From assembly GCA_024421085.1 (NCBI GenBank), contig JAHQYN010000023.1, positions 1 to 36,239 of the forward strand: a DNA stretch of 36,239 nucleotides. The letters run 5' to 3'. A program made the position numbers and the translations under genes. Of this stretch, positions 357 to 8,282 are shown one piece after another. Position 1 is the stretch's first letter. Each line of letters begins with the position of its first letter. This DNA is from Acidimicrobiia bacterium (GTDB lineage: Bacteria > Actinomycetota > Acidimicrobiia > Acidimicrobiales > Aldehydirespiratoraceae). The notes beneath the pieces were generated by a model. That model worked only from the letters and a program-made list of their open reading frames with translations, had not been told where the DNA came from and did not search any database.

Positions 357-383
357 CCCGATTTCGTAGGGCTCGTTGGTCAT
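354..383 (-). pseudogene. RelE-like toxin remnant (MTNEPYEIG*) truncated by the IS
   Basis: ATG at 383 overlaps the antitoxin stop (ATGA). The MTNEPYEI start resembles actinobacterial RelE partners of Phd/YefM. The frame is lost at the IS boundary. Confidence 0.55.
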
Positions 384-649
384 GAACGCAGCAGCGCCCG
401 AACAGCACCGACACCGCGAACCACGTTGCCTTCAAGGTAAGAGCGGTGCGCCTCGGCTAGCTCCTCGACGGCTGAGGTGTCTTCGAGCACGGCCAAGGTC
501 TCTTCAAGCGACTCAAGATCTTCGGGGCTCATGAGTACTGCTGCAGGTGAGCCGTTTCGCGTTATGACGACCCGTTCGTGGTGGGCACTGACCCGTTCAA
601 TGAACTCTGAGAGACGGTCCCGCACCGTACGGAGTGATTCGCTCGACAT
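380..649 (-). CDS. Phd/YefM-family antitoxin
   Basis: MSSESLRTVRDRLSEFIERVSAHHERVVITRNGSPAAVLMSPEDLESLEETL, classic Phd/YefM fold signature. The upstream ORF extension to 679 is probably untranslated. Confidence 0.85.
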   Translation of the reverse strand: MSSESLRTVRDRLSEFIERVSAHHERVVITRNGSPAAVLMSPEDLESLEETLAVLEDTSAVEELAEAHRSYLEGNVVRGVGAVRALLRS

Positions 650-763
650 GGCCACAATTGTGCCGCACCGGAGCACCAAGTCAACCCCTCACCACCGAAA
701 TCGGTGTGTCGGTGGCCGACAAACCCTCCCGGGCCTTCTCGCGCTTCACGGGGTGGTGAACCG

Positions 764-2296: not shown

Positions 2297-2547
2297 GCCT
2301 AAGCCCTGCGTTCAGTCAGGACACCGAGCGCGGCCGTCATGACCGGCCAGCCACTTTCTCGGTTCAATATGACGCCCAGCGCTGATCCATCGGTCGTCGT
2401 TGCGGCGGCTCTTGATCCGCGACCAGACGACGCCGCGGCTGCGATGTGGTCTGTGGTCTCCAGCACCGTTGGCGGATGCCATTCGTTGCGTCTTTTTCAA
2501 TATATTTCATGTTGACCAATGTCATACACCTGTGCAAGGGTGTCAGA

Positions 2548-3063
2548 ATGTGCATGAGATGCGAGGGATTCAGCGAAGAGCAGGTCGGGCGGGTGCACGA
2601 CCTAGCGATCGATGTGCATGGGTTCGTGATAACCCAGGTGCGAGAACACGGCCAGAACGGCTGGACCTACACGATGGGGCTCCGTGAGGGCTTGGACCAC
2701 CCAGACCTGCTGGTCGTGCACATGCTGCCCGACGTCCAAGCAGAGTTGGTGTCGAAGTTGGGAAACATGGTGGTGGACGACGGACAGATCGACCCTGAGG
2801 TGTTGGCGGTGTCTGACATCGAACTCGTGCCGGTGGACCCCAGGCACCTCCGCGATGGGCTGGTTGCTGAGTGGGTCAACCGCTATGGCAGGTTCCCCGA
2901 GGAGGGCGACTTCCTGCAGGTCATGGCGGGTTCGAGCATGCTGTGCGAATGCTGTCAGCACCGGATGCAGCGTCTCGATGAACCGGCACCGCTGCAGCCG
3001 CACCGCAAGAACCGACAACAACGCCGGGCCGAGTTGCGCAAACCGCGTTCAATGGCGGGGTAA
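2548..3063 (+). CDS. DUF4262-like protein
   Basis: HGFVITQVREHGQNGWTYTMGLREGLDHPDLLVVHMLPDVQ resembles DUF4262. Start chosen at MCMRCEG rather than 2446. Confidence 0.6.
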   Translation: MCMRCEGFSEEQVGRVHDLAIDVHGFVITQVREHGQNGWTYTMGLREGLDHPDLLVVHMLPDVQAELVSKLGNMVVDDGQIDPEVLAVSDIELVPVDPRHLRDGLVAEWVNRYGRFPEEGDFLQVMAGSSMLCECCQHRMQRLDEPAPLQPHRKNRQQRRAELRKPRSMAG

Positions 3064-3076
3064 CGGCAGCAGGGTC

Positions 3077-3166
3077 GGCTCCTGGCGACCGCGCAGGGGC
3101 CGTGGACGCTTGCGCATCGTGCTTCGATGACGGTTCAGGCTCCTGGCGACCGCGCAGGGGCCGTGG
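3077..3166. repeat. Two identical 29-bp direct repeats separated by 32 bp
   Basis: GGCTCCTGGCGACCGCGCAGGGGCCGTGG at 3077..3105 and 3138..3166. Confidence 0.9.
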
Positions 3167-3179
3167 TGGTTGTTGCGGC

Positions 3180-3449
3180 CTAGAGGTAGGAGTCGAGGGC
3201 GTCTCGGATGACTTGGCTCTCGCTGGTGTCGTCGGTAGCTGCCCGCTGCTTGATCCGGTTCTTGTAGCTGTGGGGAGCGCGGAATGTGTACACCTCGGCC
3301 CGTGTCTCTCCGATTCTCGGTGAGCGGCGGCGCGTCCGCTTGACCTTGGCCAGCTCGTCGGGCGTGAACTCTCGCCCCTCAAAGTCCGTGGCGATGGCCT
3401 CGATCTCATCGCCGGTCAAGGTCCTGTCGGTCTTAGTCTCGTCGTTCAT
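3180..3449 (-). CDS. Putative ribbon-helix-helix antitoxin
   Basis: MNDETKTDRTLTGDEIEAIATDFEGREF...YKNRIKQRAATDDTSESQVIRDALDSYL; RHH-like C-terminus; starts 2 bp after the upstream gene's stop. Confidence 0.65.
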   Translation of the reverse strand: MNDETKTDRTLTGDEIEAIATDFEGREFTPDELAKVKRTRRRSPRIGETRAEVYTFRAPHSYKNRIKQRAATDDTSESQVIRDALDSYL

Positions 3450-3451
3450 CG

Positions 3452-3700
3452 TCAATCCCTGGTGAGGTAGGTGCGGAAGACTGGGCGCAGCGGCATCGCG
3501 TGGATGACCAGGTCCTGTTCCGCTGTCTGGAGGTACAGCAGTTCGAGCAGGTTGCCCGCACGGTCGGGGCCGATGCACAGGCTCTTGGTCGGATCATGGT
3601 CGCTGTCGATGTCATAGAAGCCCAAGGCGTGTTGCCACGCATGCGAGATGTCGTCGTCGGTCAACCCGTGCCGGTAGGCCGACTCGAATATCTGCACCAC
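3452..3700 (-). CDS. Putative small toxin paired with the RHH protein
   Basis: MVQIFESAYRHGLTDDDISHAWQHALGFYDIDSDHDPTKSLCIGPDRAGNLLELLYLQTAEQDLVIHAMPLRPVFRTYL. GTG start at 3700. The pattern is common upstream of RHH/CopG antitoxins in actinobacteria. Confidence 0.6.
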   Translation of the reverse strand: MVQIFESAYRHGLTDDDISHAWQHALGFYDIDSDHDPTKSLCIGPDRAGNLLELLYLQTAEQDLVIHAMPLRPVFRTYLTRD

Positions 3701-3720
3701 TTAAGCGTAACACGTTTAAG
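3700..3720. promoter_or_regulatory. 21-bp imperfect palindrome at the toxin start, candidate autoregulatory operator
   Basis: CTTAAGCGTAACACGTTTAAG; nine-base arms with one mismatch each side, abutting the GTG start of the 3700..3452 gene. Confidence 0.65.
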
Positions 3721-4026
3721 GGTGGCTGAACCACAGCAGGTCGAAGCTGGGGTCCACCAGAATGCCGCCAGGACGACGCTACCGGCCCGTTGCTACGTTG
3801 TGGGGGCTGCCTGCTGGGCCACTCCAGGGCCCCGTGGCGGCGTTCGTGGCTCGACGGGCCGCTCTGAGCGGCGTCGCGTTGATCTCGGCCGGTACGAAGG
3901 AAGTGAAGGGGTGCTCGATTCGGCGGCGCTGGTACCGTGCGGCTCCGGCAGAAGTGTTTTCGCAGCCCACCGACTCCGACCTAAAACGCGAAGCCCTCCT
4001 AAACGCCGACCCGTTACGGTTGGGAT

Positions 4027-4362
4027 ATGAGTCTTGCCGTTGAACCAACCGACCTAGCCGGTGTTGCGCAACTGCATGGACCGGCTGCCTACGTGCTGAC
4101 CACGGGTGCCGACAGCCGGCCCCGGGTCATACATGTACCGGTCGACATCGCCGATGACGGCACCATCTCCGCCGTTGTGGGTCGCAGCGCCGCCGCCAAT
4201 GCGACCGACCGCCCCAACGTGTGCGTGTTGTGGCCTCCCGCTCCCGACGGATTCAGCCTGATCGCCGACGGCACAGCAATCGTTGAAGGCCAACCCGGCC
4301 CCGACACACAGATAACCGTGACCGTCACCACCGCAGTCAGACATCGCCCCGCCCGCACCTAG
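4027..4362 (+). CDS. PPOX/FMN-binding split-barrel-like protein
   Basis: YVLTTGADSRPRVIHVPVDIADDGTISAVVGRSAAANATDRPNVCVLWPP resembles pyridoxamine 5'-phosphate oxidase-like folds. Confidence 0.5.
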   Translation: MSLAVEPTDLAGVAQLHGPAAYVLTTGADSRPRVIHVPVDIADDGTISAVVGRSAAANATDRPNVCVLWPPAPDGFSLIADGTAIVEGQPGPDTQITVTVTTAVRHRPART

Positions 4363-4574
4363 ACCTCAAGGACACCCGCCAGGGGACCGCGCGTAGTGCA
4401 TCATCGGGCGGGTTGAGAGCGGGGTGAGCGCTGAGTCAACACCTCGTCACCGAAATTCGGCACCGCCTTGGCCGGTAGGCCTTCCCGTACCTCCGCCTCG
4501 TTTGGCAGTGACCAAGTTTTTCGTGCTTATAGCTTGCAGAAAGACATTTCACTGGTAGGGTGAAGGGCTGAAGT

Positions 4575-4874
4575 ATGAGATTCGACTTTGAGGATGACGA
4601 TTTACGACGACTGTACGAAGACAGAGAGTTTGTGCTTCCCCGAATCGGGCCCGACGTTACCAAGGCATTTCGGAAGAAGATGGGGTTGATTGCCAATTCT
4701 GCGTCTGAGTCAGACCTTCGGAGTTTCAGGGCTTTACGTCTTGAGAAACTCAAAGGGGGCCGCACCGGTCAGCACTCGATCAGACTCAACGATCAGTGGA
4801 GGCTCATCTTTCGGATCGAGACCGATGCTGAAGGTCGTTTGCTCATCATTGTCGAGATAGTCGATTACCACTAG
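4575..4874 (+). CDS. HigB/RelE-family toxin
   Basis: LRRLYEDREFVLPRIGPDVTKAFRKKM...LRSFRALRLEKLKGGRTGQHSIRLNDQWRLIFRIE, HigB-like. Confidence 0.85.
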   Translation: MRFDFEDDDLRRLYEDREFVLPRIGPDVTKAFRKKMGLIANSASESDLRSFRALRLEKLKGGRTGQHSIRLNDQWRLIFRIETDAEGRLLIIVEIVDYH

Positions 4875-4891
4875 CAAGGAGATTCAGCGCC

Positions 4892-5983
4892 ATGACCACG
4901 ACCTACACCCCAGCTGAGGTGTTCCCGCCGGGCGAGTACCTCCGCGATGAACTCGACGAGCGCGGCTGGACTGTCACCGAGTTCGCGGGAATCATCGACC
5001 GCCCGCTTCAGGCAGTGTCGGAGATTCTGAATGGAAAGAAGGCGATCACTGCCGAGACCGCCTGCTCTTTTTCTGAAGCTCTCGGCACCACTCCGGAGCT
5101 GTGGCTCAACCTTCAGAGCGCCTATCGTCTTCACCGATTGCGCGAAAAGACCACTCGGGATCATCCGAGCCCGACGGCTCGGCGAGCGCGACTCCGCGAA
5201 GTAGTTCCGCTTGCGGAGGTGAGGTCTCGGGGTTGGATACCGCGAACCGACGATCTCGATCTCATCGAAGCATCAGTGCGCGAACTGCTCGAGATTGAGA
5301 CTCTCGGCGATCCTCCGAAGTTTGTTTTGGCGGCGAGGCGTTCGAATTCCACCGACCCGATCAGCATTGAGCAGTCGGCGTGGCTCGGCCATGTGCGGCG
5401 AGTTGCTGAGACTCAGACCGTCGCCGAGTATGACGTGAACGCGCTAGGGGCGCTCGCGCAGCGCCTTCCCAGGCTGCTCGTAGACGGCCCGGGAGAACTC
5501 CCGGGACTGCCGACTCGGTTCAGTGATTGCGGTGTCTGTCTAGTGTTCGCCCAAGGTCTTCGAGGAGGCAAACTGGATGGCGCTGTGACTCTTCTGCCCG
5601 ACGGCTGCCCGGTCATTGGGCTGACCACGCGGGGAGACCGTTTCGACAGCCTCCTATTCACTCTGCTCCATGAGTGTGCCCATTTGACACTCGGTCATAT
5701 TGATTCACGCACTCCCACAATTCTTGACGACGATCTGAGAGAGCCTCGGGACGACCCGGACGAGGTGGCAGCCGACGAACAAGCCTCAACGTGGCTCTTC
5801 CCGAGCGGGTTCCAGATCAAATCGGCATCGGTACCAGCGATGCTTGAAGCTTCGTTGGAATTTGGGGTGCATCCAAGTGTGGTCGTTGGTCGCGTTCAGT
5901 ACGAGACCCAGAATTGGAGTCGCTACCGCAACCATATTCCAAAGGTCCGTTCCGAACTTCGAGACGCAGGACTGCTCTCATGA
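4892..5983 (+). CDS. HigA-like XRE antitoxin fused to an ImmA/IrrE-type metallopeptidase domain
   Basis: FPPGEYLRDELDERGWTVTEFAGIIDRPLQAVSEILNGKKAITAETA (HTH) plus LLFTLLHECAHLTLGH (HExxH). Confidence 0.88.
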   Translation: MTTTYTPAEVFPPGEYLRDELDERGWTVTEFAGIIDRPLQAVSEILNGKKAITAETACSFSEALGTTPELWLNLQSAYRLHRLREKTTRDHPSPTARRARLREVVPLAEVRSRGWIPRTDDLDLIEASVRELLEIETLGDPPKFVLAARRSNSTDPISIEQSAWLGHVRRVAETQTVAEYDVNALGALAQRLPRLLVDGPGELPGLPTRFSDCGVCLVFAQGLRGGKLDGAVTLLPDGCPVIGLTTRGDRFDSLLFTLLHECAHLTLGHIDSRTPTILDDDLREPRDDPDEVAADEQASTWLFPSGFQIKSASVPAMLEASLEFGVHPSVVVGRVQYETQNWSRYRNHIPKVRSELRDAGLLS

Positions 5984-6468
5984 GCGCATTCACCGAGTGG
6001 GGTCTCCATGACCGGTCGGCTACTTTCTCTTTCTATCTGACGGCCCATCACTGCACTAGTCGACCACAGGACGCTCGGGCCGCTGCGAGCCTGGCCGACA
6101 AGCTCACGATCGCTGGTCCCAAAGGGCCAACCGCCGCCCATCGGTTGCGCGCCTCTGGATTCGACTCTCCGGTCATGTTCGACGGGACCGGTTACGAGCG
6201 CCAAGAATTGCCCCCACCTGATGTTTGGGTAGACCGGCAGCGACGTGTTGAAGCGGCTTGGCCTCTCCTCCCGGGTGTTTTCTTGCCTTGGGACAAAGAC
6301 TGTAGTGAAGCGTTCGTGGGTGCGGTTCAGGAACAGAGCCGCATCGCGGTGGACTTGGACGCCATGATGCTATTGGCGATTGACGCGAGGTGGATCGGAA
6401 AGCAGACTGACGTCGTTGTGGATACTCTGCGCTCGGCAGACCAAGCTTTAGTGGCTCTTCGCGTTTGA
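5980..6468 (+). CDS. Hypothetical protein, third gene of the HigBA-like operon
   Basis: ATG overlaps the upstream stop (ATGA); MSAFTEWGLHDRSATFSFYLTAHHCTSRPQDARAAASLADKL...; terminator hairpin directly downstream. Confidence 0.75.
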   Translation: MSAFTEWGLHDRSATFSFYLTAHHCTSRPQDARAAASLADKLTIAGPKGPTAAHRLRASGFDSPVMFDGTGYERQELPPPDVWVDRQRRVEAAWPLLPGVFLPWDKDCSEAFVGAVQEQSRIAVDLDAMMLLAIDARWIGKQTDVVVDTLRSADQALVALRV

Positions 6469-6478
6469 GGTCGGGGTG

Positions 6479-6511
6479 AGTGGGGTGAGGGTCCGCGACC
6501 CTCACCCCACT
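6479..6511. terminator. Perfect 15-bp stem, 3-nt loop hairpin between convergent units
   Basis: AGTGGGGTGAGGGTC-CGC-GACCCTCACCCCACT. Confidence 0.8.
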
Positions 6512-6656
6512 GGCCTTCGTGGCGGAGGTGGACGGGAAGAACCCAAACAAGAAACCGACAACGGGTCAATGCGCCGCGCGGCGAATTTCGCGTGACCGTG
6601 ACCTCCAACAGCGAGCCGGTCAGGGGGCGGGGGTCCTTGAGTCCCACTGCCAGGCT

Positions 6657-8282
6657 TCAGTGGGCGTCGAGTCGGCGGAGTACGACTGCCCAGGTGAGGA
6701 CCGAGCTGACCGCTACCAGGGCGAGCGAGGCGACCGCCCCCTGAGCGAGGGCCCCCCGTTCGCCGGCAGCCCACACCTCAGTCGCGAGCGTGTCGAAACC
6801 GATGGGTGCGAGCAGCAGCGTGGCCGGCAGTTCCTTCATGGTCGAGAGCATCACCAGGCCGGCTCCGGCAAAAAGGCCCGGCGCCATCAACGGCAGCTCA
6901 ACGGTGAAGAGGCGACGCGACCGGTTCGCTCCCAGAGTCGCTGCGGCGTCGCTCATGCTCTCCGCAACCGTCTCCACCGCGACATGGGCGGCCCGACTCG
7001 CCTGGGCGCCGAAGTGCAGGACATAGGCGACGATCAGCAACGGAAGCGTCTGGTACCAGCGTCCGATGAGCGGGGCGTCAATCGCCCAGAACACCAGCGA
7101 CAGGGCGATCACCACCCCTGGAAGCGCGAAGCCCGCCACCACCATGGAATTGGCTGCACCCGCGATCCGGCTCCGATAACGCCCCGTCAGCCAGGCAATC
7201 GGCAGCACCACCGCAATGGCTGCCACCGCGGTGATCAGACCCACCTCGGCAGTGTGCAGCGCCGGGCCCCAAAGACCTCCGACATCGACTCCCAGACCGA
7301 CCGAGTCGATGTCGGTGGTGAGGCCGCGCCAAGCCCAGAACCCGAGCACCGCGACGGGACCGATCAGCGCATTGCTCAGAAATGCGCCAACCACAACCAG
7401 CACCGGGATGCCCCAACCCTTGAGGGGAACGATCAGCGGTTCATGGCTGCGCTTTACCTCCACCTGGGCACGTCGCCGCTCGAGCGCGCGTTCGCCCGTC
7501 ACGACGCACAACGCCGTTGCCCCCAGGATCAGGGCGAGCCCCATCGACCGGGCCTGGTCGAACAGTTGGTCGGCATAGATCTGTTCGGCAAGGGTGCTGT
7601 AGCCGAGCAGCGAGACAGCGCCGAAATCGCTGATCGTGTAGAGGAAGACGAGCATCGTCCCGGCCAACACCGCACTCCAGACCTGCGGCAGCACGACGGT
7701 CACAAAGACGGTCGGCGGCTTGCGGCCGAGCAGACGGGCCGACTCTTCGAGCGACGGTGGAAGCGAAGCCAGCCGGGCCGCCACCGGGAGGTACACGTAG
7801 GGATAGGTGAACAGGGTCAGCACCAGCCAGGCACCGCGGAACCCCTTCATGTCGGGCAGGTCGCTGATGCCCAGCGGCGAGACGAGATCCTCGACCAGAC
7901 CACCGGTCGCGAACCCGGCGATCAGCGCAGTCGCCCCGACGAAGCTCGGGAACACCAGCGGAATCGGGGCGAGGATGCGCCAGACGCCGCGGCCCCGGAT
8001 GTCGGTGCGGATCGTCAACCAGGCCAGGCCCGTGCCGATCACCGCCGCCGCTACCGATACCGCGAACCCGAGCAGCAGGGAGCGGCGCAGCGGATCCCAG
8101 GTCGACTGCGACAACAACAGCGAACCGAGGTCGGTTCCCAGGTCGAGGTTGCGGCTCACGACGTAGGCGAACGGCCCCATGAAGACCACGCCGATCAACA
8201 CCGAGAGGGCCAGCATCGCTGCGGGCGGTCGACGCTTCGATGCTGTCAACCGCCCCGGGTCGGCGATGCCGGAGCCGCGCAT
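6657..8282 (-). CDS. Iron(III) ABC transporter permease (FbpB-like, two fused permease domains)
   Basis: 541 aa, many TM segments; EESARLLGRKPPTVFVTVVLPQVW and SDAAATLGANRSRRLFTVELPLMAPG (EAA loops). Confidence 0.85.
   Translation of the reverse strand: MRGSGIADPGRLTASKRRPPAAMLALSVLIGVVFMGPFAYVVSRNLDLGTDLGSLLLSQSTWDPLRRSLLLGFAVSVAAAVIGTGLAWLTIRTDIRGRGVWRILAPIPLVFPSFVGATALIAGFATGGLVEDLVSPLGISDLPDMKGFRGAWLVLTLFTYPYVYLPVAARLASLPPSLEESARLLGRKPPTVFVTVVLPQVWSAVLAGTMLVFLYTISDFGAVSLLGYSTLAEQIYADQLFDQARSMGLALILGATALCVVTGERALERRRAQVEVKRSHEPLIVPLKGWGIPVLVVVGAFLSNALIGPVAVLGFWAWRGLTTDIDSVGLGVDVGGLWGPALHTAEVGLITAVAAIAVVLPIAWLTGRYRSRIAGAANSMVVAGFALPGVVIALSLVFWAIDAPLIGRWYQTLPLLIVAYVLHFGAQASRAAHVAVETVAESMSDAAATLGANRSRRLFTVELPLMAPGLFAGAGLVMLSTMKELPATLLLAPIGFDTLATEVWAAGERGALAQGAVASLALVAVSSVLTWAVVLRRLDAH

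Follow-up and report, generated by a model that had tools for sequence, protein, structure and literature searches.

A HigB-HigA/ImmA locus resembling PD-lambda-2, with a truncated third gene, in an Acidimicrobiia bacterium

Introduction

The window, which is the whole stretch of 36,239 nucleotides analysed here from an Acidimicrobiia bacterium, carries a gene for a HigB-like toxin, a gene for a HigA antitoxin fused to a metallopeptidase-like domain and a third gene, orf3. The question raised by this locus is whether the three genes form a working three-component system, and what the third of them encodes. An earlier note, made from the letters alone, had singled out the locus as a candidate for an undescribed defence or stress system of three components.

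The combination of HigB-HigA/ImmA with a third component is already known, and the three-component idea is not new. PD-lambda-2 is an anti-phage system consisting of HigB, a HigA-peptidase fusion and a third gene; in this system B is toxic alone, A rescues and C is required for defence (Vassallo et al. 2022, PMC9519451). The passages of Makarova et al. (2009, PMC2701414) on fusions of Xre with COG2856 (ImmA/IrrE) describe them as adjoining RelE toxins and propose a 'three-component TAS'.

Results

The toxin gene, its operator and the antitoxin-peptidase gene

4548-4564, no strand: operator-like inverted repeat TTCACTGGTAGGGTGAA, ten bases 5' of higB
4575-4874, forward strand: higB, HigB/RelE-family toxin, 99 aa, intact
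4892-5983, forward strand: higA-immA, HigA antitoxin joined to a metallopeptidase domain of the ImmA/IrrE/CapP type, 363 aa, intact
5669-5683, forward strand: HExxH codons of the peptidase domain (HECAH, residues 260-264), seen in the sequence, with H, E and H invariant in alignment A8
5980-6468, forward strand: orf3, 162 aa, the 5' part (residues 1-157) of a gene that has about 340 codons when complete

The first two genes are real and were correctly placed in the earlier note, as shown by Pfam, NCBIfam and the HECAH motif. The higB product matches HigB-like_toxin in Pfam (PF05015, E 2e-14) and PHROG 3066, 'toxin of TA system', and the dN/dS of higB among relatives is 0.08-0.18. The palindrome in front of higB has the form TTCAC-N7-GTGAA, and the pattern TTCAC...TAGGGTGAA is kept in all five of the aligned upstream regions, with the DNA farther upstream diverging among the five loci. 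It is found once within the window, with 0 matches expected, and is probably the site of HigA autoregulation. To judge from the sequence, the features of a HigBA type II toxin-antitoxin (TA) system are present, with the toxin gene first, a HigA-family antitoxin second and a putative operator at the promoter. By analogy with PD-lambda-2, in which the roles run opposite to the textbook, the label of HigB as the toxin may be wrong here.

The HigA part comprises residues about 12-85 of the 363-aa protein and matches antidote_HigA of NCBIfam with 57.5 bits (cut-off 47.7). The PADLOC model PD-Lambda-2_B (PDLC03982) matches residues 41-356 with an E value of 4e-35. All 12 relatives aligned keep the zinc ligands H260, E261, H264 and E291. 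An AlphaFold model of the protein (pLDDT 83.6) matched HigA structures in Foldseek and, more weakly, CapP (7t5t, E 5e-4). The marks of an ImmA/IrrE (M78) peptidase, namely the HExxH zinc site with a downstream E and an IrrE/CapP-type fold, are thus present in the sequence and the model. The protein of the window misses the threshold of Pfam M78 in the Pfam scan, while Xre-ImmA proteins linked to ORF3 elsewhere do reach it.

The full-length third gene and the convergent fourth gene

In relatives ORF3 has a full length of about 340 aa. Locus L002, from an Acidimicrobiales MAG that is the sole relative obtained from the GTDB genome set and is among the closest, carries higB, higA-immA with its 363 codons and the ATGA overlap as the window does, followed by an ORF3 of 341 aa. 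The class-wide search gave full-length ORF3 beside HigB and HigA-ImmA in genomes G575, G337 and G555, and G315 and G466 have more distant members; G640 likewise has a full-length ORF3 next to HigB-HigA/ImmA. In the phylum-wide search ORF3 was also found in G036 and G043, and two actinobacterial plasmids carry it, Arthrobacter pAAG24-80 and a Tsukamurella plasmid. None was found in the scans of viral contigs or in phage records. Full-length ORF3 has no match in Pfam, NCBIfam or PADLOC, and profile searches against the PDB gave chance matches only.

Ten members share, among other invariant residues, two cysteines, a glycine and a histidine (C274, C279, G281 and H299 in L038), and the cysteines form C-x-C-x2-C in several of them. 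When ORF3 was aligned by hhalign with nine tRNA-guanine-transglycosylase (TGT) proteins of related genomes, the local P was 0.003, the global P 1.8e-4 and the probability 10-23%; reversed controls gave P 0.17-0.5. The alignment is colinear with the TGT zinc site C-x-C-x2-C...H, with AIGALAxG against AIGGLAVGE. A likeness to the TGT superfamily (TGT, DpdA) is therefore suggested by a weak colinear profile match that includes the zinc site, but the probability is low, Pfam TGT matches no ORF3 member scanned, and catalytic residues are not established in ORF3, so that this weak likeness is a lead only. An AlphaFold model of ORF3 from a two-row alignment had a pLDDT of 33.

Loci L021 (G575) and L022 (G518) have a DNA identity of about 0.85 in higB-higA. 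Within orf3 it is 0.55-0.57 for most of the first 390 nt and rises to 0.95 immediately past them. In the protein, the identity is 0.40-0.70 for residues 1 to about 140 and complete for residues of about 140-200. In the same N-terminal region of orf3 the identity between the window and L002 falls from about 0.95 to about 0.8. The pattern bears the mark of a block of about 130 N-terminal residues replaced by recombination; such a swapped N-terminus is compatible with a role in recognition and is no proof of one.

A fourth gene, ORF4, of about 210 aa (200-230 codons), lies on the opposite strand and abuts or overlaps the 3' end of orf3 at every intact ORF3 locus. The ORF4 loci are L002, L021-L026, L038, L039 and L072, with a divergent candidate at L019. 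Alignment A2 of seven ORF4 frames has 16 invariant columns, and the frames of L038 and L039 match its members by tblastn; those of L019 and L072 were placed by position and are candidates, not proven members. No convincing match to ORF4 was obtained in Pfam or NCBIfam, and it was not found in the genome of the window (G000) or in G264. The dN/dS of ORF4 among three copies of the same genus is 0.14-0.29, and all four genes (higB, higA-immA, ORF3 and ORF4) are under purifying selection, with values of 0.08-0.29.

Linkage to HigB-HigA/ImmA and repeated loss

ORF3 or a piece of it is present in ten genomes of the sampled class (G000, G264, G518, G567, G575, G640, G555, G337, G315 and G466). It lies directly 3' of higA-immA on the same strand in eight of the ten and adjoins an Xre-ImmA gene in nine, which bears out the co-occurrence of orf3 with higB and higA-irrE that the earlier note had proposed to look for. 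HigB is upstream in seven of the eight loci, wherever the contig reaches; the contig of G567 ends inside higA. In G315 ORF3 is divergent beside another Xre-ImmA gene (Pfam M78). Seen from the other side, nine of the 20 PD-Lambda-2_B-like copies in the sampled class adjoin ORF3 or a piece and 11 do not, the latter including plain HigB-HigA/ImmA pairs (G592, G451). The link of ORF3 with HigB/HigA-ImmA is real, and because of these 11 copies it is not obligatory. ORF3 may be optional, and many HigB-HigA/ImmA pairs have no third gene.

The genus of the window is represented by six genomes. ORF3 is intact in two of them (G640 and G575) and is broken in the other four by four different lesions: at the end of a repeat in the window genome, by an ISL3 end in G264, by one in-frame TGA in G518 and by a deletion from residue 20 into ORF4 in G567. 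HigA-ImmA is intact in all six, in G567 as far as the contig goes. The pattern would fit a core that addiction maintains, together with an accessory part that the cell can do without or that is a burden to it.

The same loss of ORF3 with HigA/ImmA kept, and the fact that HigB-HigA/ImmA loci without ORF3 are common, also favour the view that the locus is an ordinary two-gene addiction or stress module, with ORF3 and ORF4 as an independent mobile pair that accompanies Xre-type regulators and contributes nothing to the TA function. In line with this, ORF3/ORF4 are also found with an Xre-M78 gene in the Arthrobacter plasmid, a small Xre gene in G036 (L038), DUF6932 and an Xre-M78 gene at L039 and a weakly MazE-like gene in the Tsukamurella plasmid (L072). 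These partners are, however, nearly always Xre, Xre-ImmA or antitoxin-like genes and not a random set; the eight of ten loci that agree in order and strand, part of them also in the ATGA overlap, and the purifying selection on ORF3 in relatives likewise argue against this view, which we regard as a serious alternative but rather unlikely.

At L039 (G043, 2428-5353) DUF6932 (144 aa), a 480-aa Xre-M78 fusion and ORF3 are on one strand with a convergent ORF4, and the toxin-like slot is held by DUF6932 in place of HigB. HigB-HigA/ImmA pairs or an ImmA gene without ORF3 occur on Rhodococcus, Micrococcus and Mycobacteroides plasmids (L074, L075 and L080) alongside divergent ThiF genes, twice with a gene for a multiubiquitin domain; these ThiF operons resemble ubiquitin-like conjugation systems.

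Truncation of the third gene in the window

6453-6497, forward strand: mobile-element terminal repeat GGCTCTTCGCGTTTGAGGTCGGGGTGAGTGGGGTGAGGGTCCGCG, 45 bp, an ISL3-type inverted-repeat end
6479-6511, no strand: hairpin, a perfect 15-bp inverted repeat (6479-6493/6497-6511) with a 3-nt loop
2323-2382, forward strand: second orf3 remnant (residues 5-24), upstream of a DUF4262 gene

The overlap between higA and orf3 consists of ATGA, as the earlier note had described. The product of orf3 is 78-80% identical to residues 1-157 of the 341-aa ORF3 of L002, and the homology ends at about 6450. The last five codons and the stop (VALRV*; GTG GCT CTT CGC GTT TGA) are supplied by the repeat from 6453 together with one base before it. 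The remaining stub is without the half that bears the invariant Cys and His residues, and no further ORF3 sequence was found in the assembly of the window genome except a remnant of 20 residues that lies upstream of the locus within the window. Searches of Pfam, NCBIfam, PADLOC and PHROGs gave no family for orf3. The description of orf3 as a 162-aa protein that cannot be assigned holds for the family match but not for the protein as such, of which only residues 1-157 of about 340 are present, and truncation relative to the full-length relatives rules out a self-contained new protein. The earlier note had also named what would speak against it, an orf3 that is unlinked or a truncated unrelated gene; linkage is found in eight of ten genomes, and the gene is truncated and nonetheless belongs to the operon.

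The 45-bp repeat has dozens of copies in the window genome and many in sister genomes including G567, several of them near contig ends. A complete ISL3 element (L105) in the sister genome G575 has ends similar to the repeat of the window. It encodes an ISL3 transposase (PF01610, DDE_Tnp_ISL3, E 4e-27) between GGCTCTTC-type inverted repeats and has an 8-bp target duplication, TGATTAGT, read from both flanks. One end of an ISL3-type element remains in the window; the transposase and the duplication are seen on L105 and not here. The same ISL3 end interrupts orf3 of G264 at about residue 60, and the DNA past it reads, on the reverse strand, like the C-terminus of an ISL3 transposase.

The hairpin is perfect and beyond chance (RNA fold z -5.0 against shuffles), as the earlier note had it, but the role of operon terminator that was assigned to it is ruled out. 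It consists of the 45-bp repeat followed by an inverted partial copy of the repeat, lacks a T-run and was not picked up in the search for terminator-like sites. Where the hairpin lies, intact relatives have the remainder of orf3 and, overlapping it, ORF4; the hairpin is therefore not an ancestral terminator of the operon.

An ISL3-associated deletion has apparently cost this genome the 3' half of orf3 and the whole of ORF4. In the likely order of events, an ISL3 element would first have inserted into orf3, and an adjacent deletion would then have removed most of the element together with the 3' half of orf3 and ORF4. That the truncation is instead an artefact, in a real genome with full orf3 and ORF4 whose contig was misjoined at the high-copy IS-end repeat, is very unlikely. 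The junction does fall exactly at a repeat with dozens of copies, and the source assembly has 241 contigs and is 90% complete; yet the repeat, with only 45 bp, is below the usual read length, the missing half of ORF3 and ORF4 are absent from the rest of the assembly, and the sister genome G264 has the same kind of lesion at another position.

It is hardly credible that the 162-aa product is complete in a working three-gene system and only by chance near in size to the 161-aa third gene of proteobacterial loci, since the open frame with its ATGA overlap, the similar length and a dN/dS against L002 of still 0.18 are set against an orf3 that is shorter than all full-length homologues, ends inside the IS-end repeat, has lost the half with the invariant Cys and His residues and shows no sequence relation to the 161-aa protein. 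Since orf3 is truncated, a working three-component system is unlikely in the window.

The remnant at 2323-2382 is 70% identical over 20 residues (tblastn, E 0.002), its region matches L020 (G640) with 91% DNA identity over 64 bp, and by sequence it is a trace of an older decayed orf3 copy. At L020, 9170-9641, there is a second decayed copy, with residues 1-100 of HigA (80% identity) overlapping residues 27-71 of ORF3, adjoining a DUF4262 gene. In the window a Phd/YefM antitoxin gene (380-679, reverse strand), the DUF4262 gene (2446-3063, forward strand) and a short conserved ORF (4027-4362, forward strand) are found; all three recur near higBA-orf3 in G640 and G264 in differing orders, and the region is therefore a shuffled TA/defence neighbourhood. 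At L002 a ParE-type toxin gene is next after the Phd/YefM gene. Downstream of the hairpin, positions 6537-6590 and 6591-6660 of the window correspond to two sites on contig C120 of the same genome that lie about 1.2 kb from each other, as if one site bears an insertion or a repeated region is shared.

Comparison with known systems

The locus is like PD-lambda-2 in its HigB-like first gene (PF05015), in a second gene that joins a HigA-type Xre domain to a C-terminal peptidase (PD-Lambda-2_B) and in a third gene that follows next on the same strand. It differs in that the third gene appears to be of another family and is truncated in the window, in the convergent fourth gene of intact relatives, and in that a defence role, published for PD-lambda-2, is here putative. 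Neither orf3 nor full ORF3 matches any PADLOC model, and both are unrelated to the third gene of 161 aa found at similar loci; E. coli genomes gave no match to the DNA of the proteobacterial HigA-ImmA and third gene.

The HigB/HigA-ImmA loci of proteobacterial prophages and plasmids (Achromobacter phage CF418P1, a Paraburkholderia plasmid and IMG/VR contigs) have homologous first and second genes in the same order, but their third gene encodes a conserved 161-aa protein without sequence similarity to ORF3, and no convincing member of ORF3 or ORF4 was found at them. An assignment of orf3 to this 161-aa family is ruled out by the lack of sequence relation, despite the like length. In the Thauera plasmid pTX1 (L078, 4138-4357) the 161-aa gene is internally deleted, with about 34 and 39 residues left, so that third genes decay in proteobacterial loci too.

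The Xre-COG2856 arrangement shares the RelE-type toxin and the fusion of Xre with a Zn-protease, and the passages cited above (PMC2701414) mention no ORF3 or ORF4 family. In CapH/CapP and DdrO/IrrE(PprI) an HTH repressor is likewise under an ImmA-type metalloprotease, to which the structural match to CapP 7t5t corresponds; here, unlike there, a single polypeptide joins repressor and protease, and HigB is the partner of the repressor, a HigA antitoxin. HigBAC and CmdTAC, for which phage defence has been shown, share the three-gene TA layout and are distinguished by a SecB-like chaperone as third gene; orf3 and full ORF3 were also considered as such a chaperone (TAC) and rejected, with no match in Pfam, NCBIfam or PADLOC.

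The claim of an undescribed three-component system therefore falls as regards HigB, a HigA-peptidase and a third gene, which are published (PMC9519451) and were foreseen in 2009 in the passages on Xre-COG2856 (PMC2701414). It may stand as regards ORF3 and ORF4, of which no description as partners of HigB-HigA/ImmA was found in the family libraries or the literature.

Discussion

The locus is probably a HigB-HigA/ImmA TA operon of the PD-lambda-2 group, to which ORF3 and the convergent ORF4 are joined in this actinobacterial lineage, and in the window it would consist of a two-gene TA core that looks functional and a dead orf3 stub. To the observed anatomy, families, linkage, truncation and constraint we add the following functional steps, all of which we infer. 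HigA/ImmA would bind the palindrome upstream of higB, repress the operon and neutralise HigB. It is known that ssDNA activates IrrE/PprI and CapP to cleave HTH repressors (PMC10904395) and that zinc also activates IrrE (PMC7907104). By analogy the metallopeptidase domain may be activated by ssDNA or zinc, or by a signal from ORF3/ORF4, upon which HigA would be cut or released and the operon derepressed; the HigA domain need not be the substrate of the peptidase. Freed HigB would stop translation and lead to abortive infection or dormancy.

In this mechanism the infection-specific factor would be ORF3, together with ORF4, where PD-lambda-2 has its C protein. By analogy with that protein, an intact ORF3 is most likely an accessory factor needed for defence, and the recombination in its 130 N-terminal residues suggests that these may be the recognition part. 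The copy of the window probably acts as an addiction or stress TA pair only.

A more far-reaching version is put forward tentatively, as a possibility short of an even chance. ORF3 and ORF4 would be an undescribed convergent pair, a zinc-site and possibly TGT-like protein whose N-terminal part recombines, with its partner, that plugs into differing antitoxin or repressor modules (HigB-HigA/ImmA, Xre-ImmA, Xre and MazE-like). Within a new actinobacterial defence family the pair would supply the half that senses or the half that acts as effector, with the ImmA peptidase coupling detection to the release of the toxin, and the copy of the window would have been disabled by the IS.

Under the reading of a HigB-HigA/ImmA operon of the PD-lambda-2 group, the full-length version with ORF4 may be an undescribed variant of a PD-lambda-2-type defence system. 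The block-swapped N-terminus of ORF3 is worth testing as a phage-recognition domain, and the repeated loss of ORF3 in one genus with HigA/ImmA kept is a natural experiment that separates the addictive from the costly part. The analysis brings out an uncharacterised protein pair, ORF3/ORF4, that lies outside the family libraries searched. It also suggests that different lineages combine the HigB-HigA/ImmA core, known from a tested defence system, with third components that are unrelated to one another.
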